Notes: generated by a model not told the origin, from the letters alone. A stretch of DNA of 64,000 nucleotides from Senegalimassilia anaerobia JC110 (GCF_000236865.1 NZ_HE611014.1:574130-638129); one strand, 5' to 3'. Counted from the stretch's first letter, positions 17,955 through 23,100 are shown. Program-made: numbers and translations.

Positions 17955-18859
17955 TTAGCTGCCTACCAGGTCCATCGCGTGCAGGGCGAAGTTTCGCACT
18001 ACGCGATGGCGCGCGGTTTCGCGGTCGTCGCGCGTGACGATGCAGATGGGGATGCGCGGGTCTTCGGCCGGGTCGATGGGGATGAGCGCGGTCGCGAGCT
18101 TCGCCTTCCTCAGGCGGTTCAGCACCACGCTGAAGTAATACCCTTGCTTGATGGTGATGTGCGCCAGCGCGTCGGCGGCGGTCGTGATCTGGTTGACGTT
18201 GCTCACCAGGTGAAGCTGCTTGCAGGTGACCAAGATCGAGCTATTGAACGAATCGTAGACGCCGGATTCCCCCGCCGGGTATTTACCCAGGTCGGCAAAG
18301 GTGACGAACTCCTTCGATGCAAGGGGATGCGTGCGCGCCACGGTGATGCCGGTGGGAAGGGATCCCATGGGGGTGCACGTGCAGCCTTGCCTCTCGTATT
18401 TGCCGATGGTCACGAGCGCGTCGTATTCATCGGGGTCGATGCCGCGCGCCATCTGCTCGCGGCTTGCCAGATCGAACGTGATGGGCATACCGGTGTTGCG
18501 TTGGAAGAACATCGACCACGCCCGGCGCAGCTGATCGTCGCCGTCGAAGGCGGGCGAGCAAAGGGCCATTCGGAACGGCGCCAGGCTTTCGGTTCGGGCA
18601 GCCCGCCGCCGAAGGACATCGTTTCCAGGTCCGTGTACGCCCTCGCTGCAACCTTGGCCTTCTGATAGAACGCGCGGCCTTGCACGGTGGGGCTGACGCC
18701 GCTGTTCGTGCGATCGAACAGCTTCTGCCCATATTCCCTTTCCAGGTCGCTGATGGCCTTCGACACCGCTTGGGCTGAGACGTTGTGGCCTCGCGCCGCC
18801 GTGGAGATGCTTCCCTGCTCATATACGGTGACGAAGTACTTAACCTGGTTGATGTTCAT
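17955..18859 (-). pseudogene. LysR-family transcriptional regulator interrupted by a frameshift
   Basis: The N-terminal part (18859 down to about 18590) is a good LysR winged helix, beginning MNINQVKYFVTVYEQGSIST with SAQAVSKAISDLEREYGQKLF. Near 18585-18600 the reading frame changes: the helix-turn-helix frame reads LPEPKAW and then becomes nonsense, while the effector-binding domain (MPITFDLASREQ to HAMDLVGS, stop at 17955) continues in another frame. The span is 905 bases, one short of 302 codons, so a single-base loss in the CCGAACCG run is the simplest explanation. It could be a true pseudogene, a phase-variable allele or a sequencing error. A LysR-box-like palindrome lies upstream. Confidence 0.8.
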
Positions 18860-19163: not shown

Positions 19164-19988
19164 ATGGGGAGCGTTTTCAAAGCGAGATGGGCGGTTTGCC
19201 TGCTTGCGGTGTGCATGGCGGCGTGCGCGTGCCTGCTGGGCGGATGCGCCGCCGGGGAAGCGTCCGGCGGCGTGCTCAAGGTCGGGGTACGCGCCGATGT
19301 GGTGGGCTTCAGCTCCTATAACGAGCACACGGGGAAGTTCTATGGTGCGGAAGTGGATATCGCCGAGGAGCTGGCGCGTCGCTTGGGCTATGCCGGCGCG
19401 GAGTTCACGGCGGTCACGCCCGAAAGCCGCGAGGAGATGCTGCAAAGAGGGGCGGTGGATTGCCTGATCGCATGCTACTCGGTGTCGGATGAGCGCTCGG
19501 AGCTCTTCGATTTCTCGCCCGAGTATTGCACCGACTCCATCATCTTGGTGGCGCAGGACACCTCGCTTATCAAGGGCATCGACGACTTGGGCGGATGCAC
19601 CTTCGGCGTCATGTCTGGCGCGAACACGGCCCCACAGCTGGCCCGCCATCTTGCGGAGGTGGGCTTCAGCGACGGCAAGCAGCTTTCGGCATCTTCGGAT
19701 GGCTGCGATGCCGAATACGACACCTGGCATCTGATGATGTATTCCAGCTATCAGGAGCTCTCTGACGCCCTTGAATCGGGCGAGGTGGACGTGATGGCGT
19801 GCGACGGGGTCATCGCCAAGGCGTATCTCAACGACGAGCGCGTCATCTTGCCCGGTTTTTCCATCGACCCGCAACGTTATGCCGTCGCCACGCAGAAGGG
19901 CAGTGCGCTGTCCGGTCGCGTAGGGGACGCCGTCAGGGGCATGGTCGACGACGGCACCGTCGCCGCGATCATCGACGCATGGGATTAA
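19164..19988 (+). CDS. Amino-acid-type periplasmic solute-binding lipoprotein (SBP family 3)
   Basis: 275 residues with a lipoprotein signal: a basic start, hydrophobic core and lipobox LLGGC near residue 29. The mature part is family 3: GVLKVGVRADVVGFSS, FYGAEVDIAEELARRLGY, MLQRGAVDCLIACYSVSDERSE split across the first lobe, and LESGEVDVMACDGVIA in the second. These bind polar amino acids or related small solutes. An upstream in-frame ATG (19047) gives no signal peptide; the ATG at 19164 has GGAAAGGGGA. No ABC permease or ATPase is adjacent; instead the next gene, 19 bases downstream, is a sensor-MscS channel fusion. Confidence 0.87.
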   Translation: MGSVFKARWAVCLLAVCMAACACLLGGCAAGEASGGVLKVGVRADVVGFSSYNEHTGKFYGAEVDIAEELARRLGYAGAEFTAVTPESREEMLQRGAVDCLIACYSVSDERSELFDFSPEYCTDSIILVAQDTSLIKGIDDLGGCTFGVMSGANTAPQLARHLAEVGFSDGKQLSASSDGCDAEYDTWHLMMYSSYQELSDALESGEVDVMACDGVIAKAYLNDERVILPGFSIDPQRYAVATQKGSALSGRVGDAVRGMVDDGTVAAIIDAWD

Positions 19989-20007
19989 GGATAAGGAGGC
20001 AGGTGCC

Positions 20008-23000
20008 GTGATGTACCGTACGAAGGGGAAAGCCGTCATCCTGGCGGTGGCGATAGCCGTCAGCATGGTGGTCATGGGCATATTGCTCAACGGCATGCAG
20101 GAGCGTTTGCAGCTTGAGAGCCTCGACCACGAGATCCGCCAAGAGGCGGCCGAGCTGCCCGGCGTCTTGCAGGCTGCGGCCGATGAGACGGTGGGCAACG
20201 AGGAGACGTTCGACGCGATTTACCAAAGCAAGGCGGAAAGCGTCGCCTTCATGGCGCGCAACGACGTCGGGTTCGAGGCATCCGATGCGAAGATGCGGGA
20301 ATACAAGGACCTGCTGAAGGTCGACAACATCATGGTCGTCGCGCGTGACGGGCAGGTTGTGGCGAAGGCCGCCGATACCAAGGCGAACTTCGCCTACGAC
20401 AGGTTCAATGCTTTACGGGTGACGTTTGATACGGGCAAGGCCTCCGATGCGGTGGAGATCGAGCTGCCCGAGCGGGGATGGCTGGAGCGCTATTACGCGT
20501 GCGCGCTCGACGACGATTCCATGGTGGTCATCGAGAACAGCCCCTCCGAGCTGCGCGAGCTTGTCGATGGCACTAGCTCGACCGCCAGCGTGCTCAAGGA
20601 TATGACCGTCGGGCGCAACGGCTACGTCATGGCGGTTTCCGCACGGGATTATCTGGTCACGTACAGCCCCGATACCGCCGTGGTGGGCGCCGACGCCCTT
20701 GAGGCGGGGCTTGACGTCTCGGAGCTTGAAGACGGCAACTTCTTCCATGCCGAGTTCAATGGCGAGGCGCTGTACTGCGGCGTGTTCCAAATCGATGATG
20801 CGTATTATCTGTACTGCGTCCCCGAGGCGGATCTGGCGGGTTCCCGCGCGATCACCGTCGGCGTCATCTTGTTCGTGTTCCTTGCCGTGATGGCCGCCGT
20901 GGCCTTGTACGGCATCTTCGTGATGCAGGAGGGCTTGCGCGCGGGCGCGGGCGAGGGGAGCGTCTCGTTCGGCGGATACCGCTACAACAAGGCCATCGGC
21001 AAGAAGGCCATCGTGCTTTCCATCGTCGGGTTCCTGGCGATCGTCGGCGTCGCCTTCTATATGCAGACGTTGTTCGCCTTGTCCAGCCAGGCCGTGGCCA
21101 ACGGCCAGCGTTGCGCCGAGGTCTCCGAGACGCTGGCGTCGAACACCAAGAGGGCGGACGTGCTGGAGGACCAGTATGCGCAGCGTTATCTTGACAAGAA
21201 CCACCTTGCCGCGTACATGATCGAGCGAAACCCCGAGCTGGTCTCCCATGGGAAGCTGGTCGAGATGGCCGATGCGCTGCAGGTCGCCTATGTGTACGTG
21301 TTCGATGGCAACGGGAACATGACGGCGTCGAACACCTCGCAGCGCAGCTACAGCCTGTCGAACACCTACGGCGATTCGTCCTATGCGTTCCGCAGCCTGT
21401 TGGCGGGCAAGGACGAGTTCATCCAGGAACCGTCGGTCAACGCATCGACGGGCGAGGTGGACCAATGGCTGGGCGTCGCGCTTTACGACGATAGCGGCAT
21501 AGCAAGCGGCCTCGTGCAGATCGGCGTGCGCACGTCGAATCTGGCGACGCTGATGAAGAGCCTGCAGATCGACCATGTGCTCGACGGCGTGAAGGTGGGT
21601 TCTGAGGGATTCGCCTTCGCTTTGGGCAAAGAGGACGACACTGTGGCGTATTATCCGAACGCCAAATACATCGGCAAGTCCGCCGAGGAGCTGGGCTTGG
21701 AGAAGACCCAGATCAAAGACGGGTTCTCAGACTACATCACCGTGGGCGGCGAGCGGTATTTCGCAAATTGCACCGAGCTTGCCGACTATTACCTGTTCGT
21801 TGCCGGCCCCGAAGGCGAGCTGATGGCCGAACGCGGCCCCCTTTCCGTGGCCACGGGCGTCATCGCGCTGATCTGCCTGCTGTTCGTGTTCGCCGTGCTG
21901 TCCCTTGAGCATCGCGCGCAGGGCGAGCCGGGCGAGCAGGGCCGTCCGTCGGCGCGAAGGGGGCATCGCGGCTCCGATGCGCGCATGGTGAACGTGGTCA
22001 TGGCAGATGGTCGCACGAAGCGCACGGAGAGCGCGGTCAGCCGCTGGCTGAACGGGTCCATGGCCTGGAACGAGAAGTCCCCCGAGCAGAAGCTGGCGAC
22101 GGTGATCCGCTGGTTTGCGGGCGTGGGCGTGTTCTGCGTGTTCCTGGCGGTGGTGTTCGGCGACAGGGTCTTCTCGTCGGATTCGGTGTTCGCCTACATC
22201 CTGGGCGATGACTGGGAGCGCGGCGTGAACGTGTTCGCCGTCACGGCGTCCATTATGTACGCATGCGTGGCGATCACCGTGGCGACGATCGCGCAGTGGG
22301 TGCTGCGCCTGCTGTCCGACGTGCTGGGGACGCGCGGCGAGACGGTGTGCCGTTTGCTTTCAAGCGTGGTGAAGTACGGCATGGTCGTGTTCATGCTGTA
22401 TTGGTGCCTTGGCGTGTTGGGCGTCGACACCGCAACGCTTCTGGCTTCCATGGGCATCATCACCTTGGCGCTGTCGTTCGGCGCGAAGGACCTTATCACC
22501 GATATCCTGTGCGGTCTGTTCATCATCTTCGAGGGCGAGTTCCGCGTTGGCGACATCATCCAGGTGGGTAGCAGCACCGGCACCGTCATGGAGATCGGCG
22601 TGCGCACCACGAAGATCAAGAACGGGGCCGGGGATGTGCTGGTCCTGCGCAACAGCGGCATATCCAACGTGGTGAACAAGACCAAGCTCGACTCCTATGC
22701 CAACGTCGATGTGGTCATTCCCACGGGCGAGAGCCTGCCGTACGTGGAGAACGTGCTTTCGCGCGAGCTGCCGAAGGTGGCCGAGCGCGTGCCCGAGATC
22801 TTGGACGGCCCGTTCTACAAGGGCGTGGTCGAGCTGACCGATTCGGCTATGACCATCCGCGTGGTGGCGACATGCTCGGAGACTGATCGCGCGGCGCTCG
22901 AGCGCAGCTTGAAGCGCGAGATGAAGCTGCTGCTCTCGCGCAACGATATCGCGCCGTACCAGCTGACCTGCGAGCACGACGAGGCGGAGCCGACGGCCGA

Positions 23001-23100
23001 TGAGCTTATGGAGAACGCCGCGCAGCTCAAGGAGGCGGATGCCTTCAGCGAGCAGCAGGCCAACGCCGCGCGCAACGTCGGGAACGACGCCCGCAAGTAG
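20008..23100 (+). CDS. MscS-family channel with two extracytoplasmic Cache-like sensor regions
   Basis: 1,030 residues. A membrane helix at about 8-28 precedes an external region (30-280) and a second helix (about 281-306); the pattern repeats with a helix at 333-358, an external region (360-610) and a helix at 612-635. Both external regions have features of double-Cache domains (GRNGYVMAVSARDYLVTYSP near 203; GSEGFAFALGKEDDTVAYYP near 535). A basic cytoplasmic segment follows, then an MscS channel: helices near 697, 739 and 787, the pore-helix stretch TLLASMGIITLALSFGAKD (about 811-829) and the beta domain GEFRVGDIIQVG. The start is GTG (20008) or the adjacent ATG (20011), after AAGGAGG. This suggests a channel gated by ligand as well as tension; gating by a ligand is inference. 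Confidence 0.85.
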   Translation: MMYRTKGKAVILAVAIAVSMVVMGILLNGMQERLQLESLDHEIRQEAAELPGVLQAAADETVGNEETFDAIYQSKAESVAFMARNDVGFEASDAKMREYKDLLKVDNIMVVARDGQVVAKAADTKANFAYDRFNALRVTFDTGKASDAVEIELPERGWLERYYACALDDDSMVVIENSPSELRELVDGTSSTASVLKDMTVGRNGYVMAVSARDYLVTYSPDTAVVGADALEAGLDVSELEDGNFFHAEFNGEALYCGVFQIDDAYYLYCVPEADLAGSRAITVGVILFVFLAVMAAVALYGIFVMQEGLRAGAGEGSVSFGGYRYNKAIGKKAIVLSIVGFLAIVGVAFYMQTLFALSSQAVANGQRCAEVSETLASNTKRADVLEDQYAQRYLDKNHLAAYMIERNPELVSHGKLVEMADALQVAYVYVFDGNGNMTASNTSQRSYSLSNTYGDSSYAFRSLLAGKDEFIQEPSVNASTGEVDQWLGVALYDDSGIASGLVQIGVRTSNLATLMKSLQIDHVLDGVKVGSEGFAFALGKEDDTVAYYPNAKYIGKSAEELGLEKTQIKDGFSDYITVGGERYFANCTELADYYLFVAGPEGELMAERGPLSVATGVIALICLLFVFAVLSLEHRAQGEPGEQGRPSARRGHRGSDARMVNVVMADGRTKRTESAVSRWLNGSMAWNEKSPEQKLATVIRWFAGVGVFCVFLAVVFGDRVFSSDSVFAYILGDDWERGVNVFAVTASIMYACVAITVATIAQWVLRLLSDVLGTRGETVCRLLSSVVKYGMVVFMLYWCLGVLGVDTATLLASMGIITLALSFGAKDLITDILCGLFIIFEGEFRVGDIIQVGSSTGTVMEIGVRTTKIKNGAGDVLVLRNSGISNVVNKTKLDSYANVDVVIPTGESLPYVENVLSRELPKVAERVPEILDGPFYKGVVELTDSAMTIRVVATCSETDRAALERSLKREMKLLLSRNDIAPYQLTCEHDEAEPTADELMENAAQLKEADAFSEQQANAARNVGNDARK

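Follow-up and report, generated by a model that had tools for sequence, protein, structure and literature searches.

A solute-binding lipoprotein encoded next to a double-dCache MscS channel: a conserved gene pair and candidate nutrient-controlled channel

Family 3 solute-binding proteins (SBPs) usually serve ABC importers. In Senegalimassilia anaerobia JC110 (2.4 Mb genome, relatives in the Eggerthellaceae), a gene for such a protein directly precedes a gene for an MscS-type channel, and the initial annotation suggested that the lipoprotein might present its ligand to the channel and control its opening. The question raised by this locus is whether the two proteins belong together and, if so, what the SBP could do for the channel. 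We examined the pair in the window, i.e. the whole stretch of 64,000 nucleotides that was analysed, and in related genomes.

The SBP gene (19164-19988, + strand; ATG at 19164, stop at 19988) encodes a lipoprotein of 274 residues (PF00497, E=6.7e-22). Its predicted lipid anchor is the lipobox Cys28 (19245-19247, + strand), invariant in a 26-sequence family alignment. Nineteen bases separate the stop codon of this gene from the start of the channel gene, and a ribosome-binding site, AAGGAGG (19993-19999, + strand), lies inside this gap. The channel gene (20008-23100, + strand) starts at GTG 20008 or, as is likely, at ATG 20011, ends with the stop at 23100 and encodes 1,030 residues with 8 predicted transmembrane (TM) helices, an assignment based on Pfam, PDB, AlphaFold2, Foldseek, hydropathy and aligned orthologs. 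A family 3 lipoprotein followed 19 bases later by a 1,030-residue Cache/MscS protein, as initially annotated, was thus confirmed by the PF00497 and PF00924/PF21088 matches, the lipobox, AlphaFold2 and Foldseek. Upstream of the pair and divergent from it, a LysR regulator gene (17955-18859, - strand) has its HTH and substrate domains in different frames; it is either a pseudogene or an assembly error.

Hydropathy and AlphaFold gave the following order for the channel: TM1, ectodomain 1, TM2, TM3, ectodomain 2, TM4, a charged cytoplasmic linker, TM5-8 and the MscS cytoplasmic domain. The model has a mean pLDDT of 78; values in the ectodomains are mostly 80-93. The first ectodomain (residues 33-273; 20104-20826, + strand), flanked by TM1 (4-32) and TM2 (274-310), was assigned a dCache fold from its modelled secondary structure and its homology to the second one. 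The latter (residues 361-601; 21088-21810, + strand), flanked by TM3 (328-360) and TM4 (607-638), is dCache_1-like, as judged from a weak PF02743 match, the orthologs and the model. The window protein itself stays below the Pfam cut-off (dCache_1 E=0.0014 in region 2, CHASE4 E=0.042 in region 1); dCache_1 is matched in 27 of 28 channel orthologs (best E=1.5e-14). When the PDB was searched with a profile of either ectodomain by itself, no Cache structure was returned, and only fold comparison gave one: with the channel model, Foldseek retrieved the dCache domains of PctA, Mlp37 and CtaA (E ~1e-8 to 1e-9, matches not assigned to one ectodomain or the other). In both regions, a long N-terminal helix and two PAS-like subdomains lie between two TM helices, in the same alpha/beta double-PAS order in the AlphaFold model, and the two ectodomains are homologous to each other (hhalign probability 99.9%, E=2.8e-32). 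These results uphold the view that the external regions fold as Cache domains and, because the ectodomains are homologous, the sensor half appears to have arisen by tandem duplication of a TM-dCache-TM unit. The second-ectodomain profile also has matches among the sensor parts of other proteins, which include a GGDEF protein, a hybrid kinase and further ones 600-900 residues long (L129:6078-8051, L131:3869-6055, L174-L195).

The sensor half is joined to the channel half by a cytoplasmic linker (21922-22080, + strand) with the conserved motif GR..(K/R)TESA(A/V)SRW, found in alignments. The MscS module (22090-22941, + strand) comprises an extra TM5, TM6-TM7, a pore helix (residues 808-842), and beta and alpha/beta domains, identified by PF00924 (E=2.8e-13), PF21088 (E=8.3e-9), the AlphaFold2 helices and Foldseek (E=1.8e-15 against MscS). 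The closest PDB sequence relative of the protein is the MscS channel 3t9n/3udc (E=8e-29). Pore helix, beta domain and fold are indeed those of the MscS family.

The SBP was modelled with a pLDDT of 90.9. Its top fold match is the Asp/Glu receptor PEB1a (2v25), followed by several amino-acid SBPs including the Glu-binding 5eyf; the type II SBP fold, the amino-acid-type pocket and the PF00497 match place it in family 3. The pocket residues R43, R89, S106, R111, Y196 and D214 are kept in 43 of 43 sequences; R111, S106 and D214 form the set for the amino acid backbone, and R89 aligns with the TR-motif arginine of PEB1a. In GlnH, Arg147 contacts the side-chain carboxylate of the ligand (PMC6069109). 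By our reading, R89 corresponds to this arginine, so that the GlnH-type Asp/Glu combination (carboxylate Arg with backbone Ser, Arg and Asp) is present in the SBP, as matched via PEB1a and not by direct structural superposition. Because these residues are kept and PEB1a is the top fold match, we predict an acidic ligand, Asp or Glu being the best guess. This specificity is a prediction only and is not certain, since the position of GlnH Thr162 is C, A or T across these SBPs. The known amino-acid Cache motif (dCache_1AA), searched as PctA-type R126/W/Y/D residues, occurred in neither ectodomain of any of 45 channel proteins, which fits the SBP, rather than a Cache domain, as the putative amino-acid receptor.

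To find out how general the pair is, we used the sensor half of the channel as query against one genome of each species. This gave 79 loci in Coriobacteriia (Eggerthellaceae, Coriobacteriaceae, Atopobiaceae), Bifidobacterium panos, Lachnospiraceae, Oscillospiraceae and other Clostridia. An SBP gene lies directly upstream and on the same strand in 77 of the 79, across two phyla, a count that includes a few fragmentary or frameshifted loci (e.g. L055, L102, L104); the two exceptions are a contig end (L050) and a broken copy (L116). Adjacency in related genomes, set beforehand as a check on the initial annotation, was therefore observed. The stop-to-start gap is 2-21 bp in 66 of 68 measured loci, and 64 and 117 bp in the other two. 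When neighbouring genes were clustered, only the SBP and the channel were generally conserved (72/72 and 71/72 loci). A wider operon was sought around the pair; aquaporin, LysR regulator, ABC exporter and FHA-ABC genes recur there, none of them generally.

The lipobox is present in 61 of 73 SBP homologs. About ten linked SBPs of Clostridia (L087, L091, L093, L094, L096-L099, L105, L114) have a signal peptide and no lipobox Cys, on account of which they may be held by the partner channel. In a one-membrane cell, such proteins would need other means of surface retention.

The prevalence of the pair is patchy. The sensor half was matched in 53 of 301 genomes of the order and in 9 of 397 of a phylum-wide sample, and a sample of 246 from the order of L087 contained one full system. 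The pair is absent from the other two genomes of the window's own genus. No relative was found in viral contigs; matches in a phage collection were set aside, as they showed similarity to the pore domain only, in unannotated records.

Do the two genes also travel together? Tree distances of SBP and channel are correlated (r 0.85; 0.79 with the two longest branches removed; uncorrected for species phylogeny), and none of 300 permutations reached the observed correlation. The window copy groups with L039, L040 and L051 in both trees. A locus labelled Lachnospiraceae (L083) stands beside one of Coriobacteriaceae (L079), and the Bifidobacterium copy (L117) among Coriobacteriia, again in both trees; because these two copies are placed alike, it looks as if the pair had moved as a unit.

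An SBP of this family could nevertheless serve an ABC importer encoded elsewhere, the channel being an independent osmotic valve with which it is merely co-transcribed. The customary role of family 3 SBPs speaks for this, as do two of the next most similar SBPs: in 140 family genomes, matches at E<=1e-44 adjoin the channel (except in G041, whose channel contig breaks off at that point and whose match sits on a different short contig), identity falls to 40% or less in the next group, and both of its members that we inspected (L147, L145) belong to ABC importer operons. The near-universal adjacency and the joint placement of the pair in the two trees argue against it. In addition, a sequence search detected no PAAT-type permease within ~7-8 kb of 72 loci, so that the arrangement expected of an importer SBP, encoded with permease and ATPase, was not seen. 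In the genome of the window, no BPD_transp_1 permease lies less than 20 kb from the pair (the nearest are ~22 kb upstream and ~44 kb downstream), in agreement with the annotated lack of a nearby ABC permease, and the sole PF00497 gene that adjoins a permease is a different one. We thus found no support for an ABC permease using this SBP. A neighbouring importer was rejected, as no permease was found near the pair and the two inspected SBPs of ABC operons belong to the next, less similar group; service to a distant one is in our opinion very unlikely. Because adjacency is conserved, no PAAT permease was found near and the permease-adjoining gene is another one, the two proteins very probably function together. 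This genomic comparison gives good support to functional coupling; what adjacency and co-inheritance show is a linkage of function, not gating.

Where could the SBP dock? Four channel relatives with roughly 25-33% identity (L127, L128, L197, L198) have no SBP, so a Cache-MscS fusion does not always require one; the sequence of another distant relative (L196) ends 123 bp upstream. All 74 channels of the SBP-linked set (74/74) carry the motif RFNxLR in the first ectodomain (residues 132-137; 20401-20418, + strand), a suggestive feature only, which is missing from each of 5 distant relatives for which no SBP was found. Moreover, of the positions that the SBP-linked set conserves, the distant relatives have lost a larger share in ectodomain 1 (14/22) than in ectodomain 2 (9/31; Fisher p=0.02). 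Both observations hint at docking on ectodomain 1, from relatives that are few and divergent.

The closest layout that we know is the GlnH-GlnX-PknG system of Mycobacterium and Corynebacterium, in which GlnH, an Asp/Glu lipoprotein SBP, is thought to relay its state to GlnX, a protein with 4 TM helices and two ectodomains termed four-helix-bundle or CHASE3-like (PMC6069109, PMC9769921). The two systems share a family 3 SBP lipoprotein and a two-ectodomain partner without an ABC permease, but here the ectodomains are dCache and an MscS pore is fused to the sensor, whereas there the output is a Ser/Thr kinase. Clustering of neighbouring genes revealed no PknG-like output: neither a kinase nor any other further gene is generally conserved next to the pair. 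SBP-coupled kinases are also known in LuxP-LuxQ and TorT-TorS (PMC11113362, PMC6069109). In these, a binding protein docks on and controls a membrane sensor, the output being a histidine kinase and not a channel. The periplasmic region of LuxQ has a double PAS/Cache fold. MscK, MscM and YbiO likewise combine an MscS pore and cytoplasmic domain with extra N-terminal TM helices and external parts, and we know of none of this type that contains Cache domains or has an SBP gene as obligate partner. Ionotropic glutamate receptors and bacterial GluR0 have an extracellular, amino-acid-binding domain of SBP fold that controls an ion pore. This domain belongs to the same chain as the pore, which is K+-channel-like, whereas here the SBP is a separate lipoprotein and the pore MscS-like. 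SBP-controlled receptors, as described in 2024, comprise chemoreceptors, sensor kinases, Ser/Thr kinases and c-di-GMP enzymes, channels not being included (PMC11113362). In line with the initial remark that no system of exactly this arrangement was known to be described, we found no description of a Cache-MscS or SBP-MscS system in the open-licence PubMed Central literature; a unit of SBP and Cache-MscS channel is likely, not proven, to be new.

Two other loci of the genome were noted in passing. In one (L134; G000:C1 248000-254000, 346-3478, - strand), an orphan SBP_bac_3 gene and the beginning of a hybrid histidine kinase gene overlap, with no permease between them; the other (L133; G000:C3 40000-50000, 2916-5849, - strand) encodes a protein of 977 residues in which histidine kinase and receiver domains are fused to a pair of SBP_3 stretches.

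We propose, with a probability of about 0.6, that the pair is a two-protein, nutrient-controlled MscS-type channel, in which an acidic-amino-acid SBP docks on dCache ectodomains. The membrane-anchored SBP would bind Asp or Glu outside the cell and, closed and loaded with its ligand, dock on the tandem ectodomains, probably on the first one. The resulting change would travel via the four TM helices of the sensor half and the conserved linker and would shift the opening probability or tension threshold of the pore, so that the external nutrient supply would govern whether ions and small solutes are released (or retained). We infer the identity of the ligand, the docking, the gating with its direction (open or close) and the osmotic purpose from the features described above. 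Ligand gating is the favoured and most likely mechanism, as a candidate only. That the pair is a bipartite ligand-gated ion channel, with the separate lipoprotein as a detachable amino-acid-binding subunit of the pore, has in our estimation an even chance; the channel could also be opened by tension, the SBP merely tuning it.

The genes around the pair bear on the purpose of such a channel. An AqpZ-type aquaporin gene adjoins it at ~16 loci in two phyla, in differing orientations. Where it lies directly upstream of the SBP gene, it is co-directional in Mediterraneibacter-type loci (L088, L090, L095, L101, L103, L108, L110) and divergent in Enorma/Olsenella (L046, L047, L065, L072, L073, L076, L082). 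This neighbour fits a role in water balance and gives partial, independent support to an osmotic link. LysR regulators also recur near the pair. The aquaporin neighbour bears as well on the idea that the channel mainly exports an amino acid such as glutamate, the SBP sensing the outside level for feedback. MscCG of Corynebacterium glutamicum, an MscS-type glutamate exporter, is a precedent, and the pocket of our SBP suits an acidic amino acid; the aquaporin gene suggests a part in water balance instead of metabolite export, and we regard the export role as unlikely. Alternatively, the pore might be a signalling module, the receptor half relaying the SBP signal inward with ion flux, not osmolyte release, as the message. 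The receptor layout, with 4 TM helices and two ectodomains, does match that of GlnX, and a gene for an FHA-domain ABC ATPase lies 3' of the channel at four clostridial loci (L087:11001-13123, L091, L094, L090), followed in L087 by an ABC-2 membrane gene. However, the pore helix and the beta domain have the intact, conserved form of an ordinary MscS, and signalling is the least probable of the explanations considered here.

If the proposed nutrient-controlled channel is real, common gut bacteria, among them Eggerthella, Gordonibacter, Collinsella, Olsenella and some Lachnospiraceae, would have an osmotic valve whose opening is set directly by external nutrients. MscS would then be a chemically gated channel, and ion channels would join the SBP-controlled receptors. 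The pair is a small and concrete two-protein system for asking whether MscS channels can be chemically gated.
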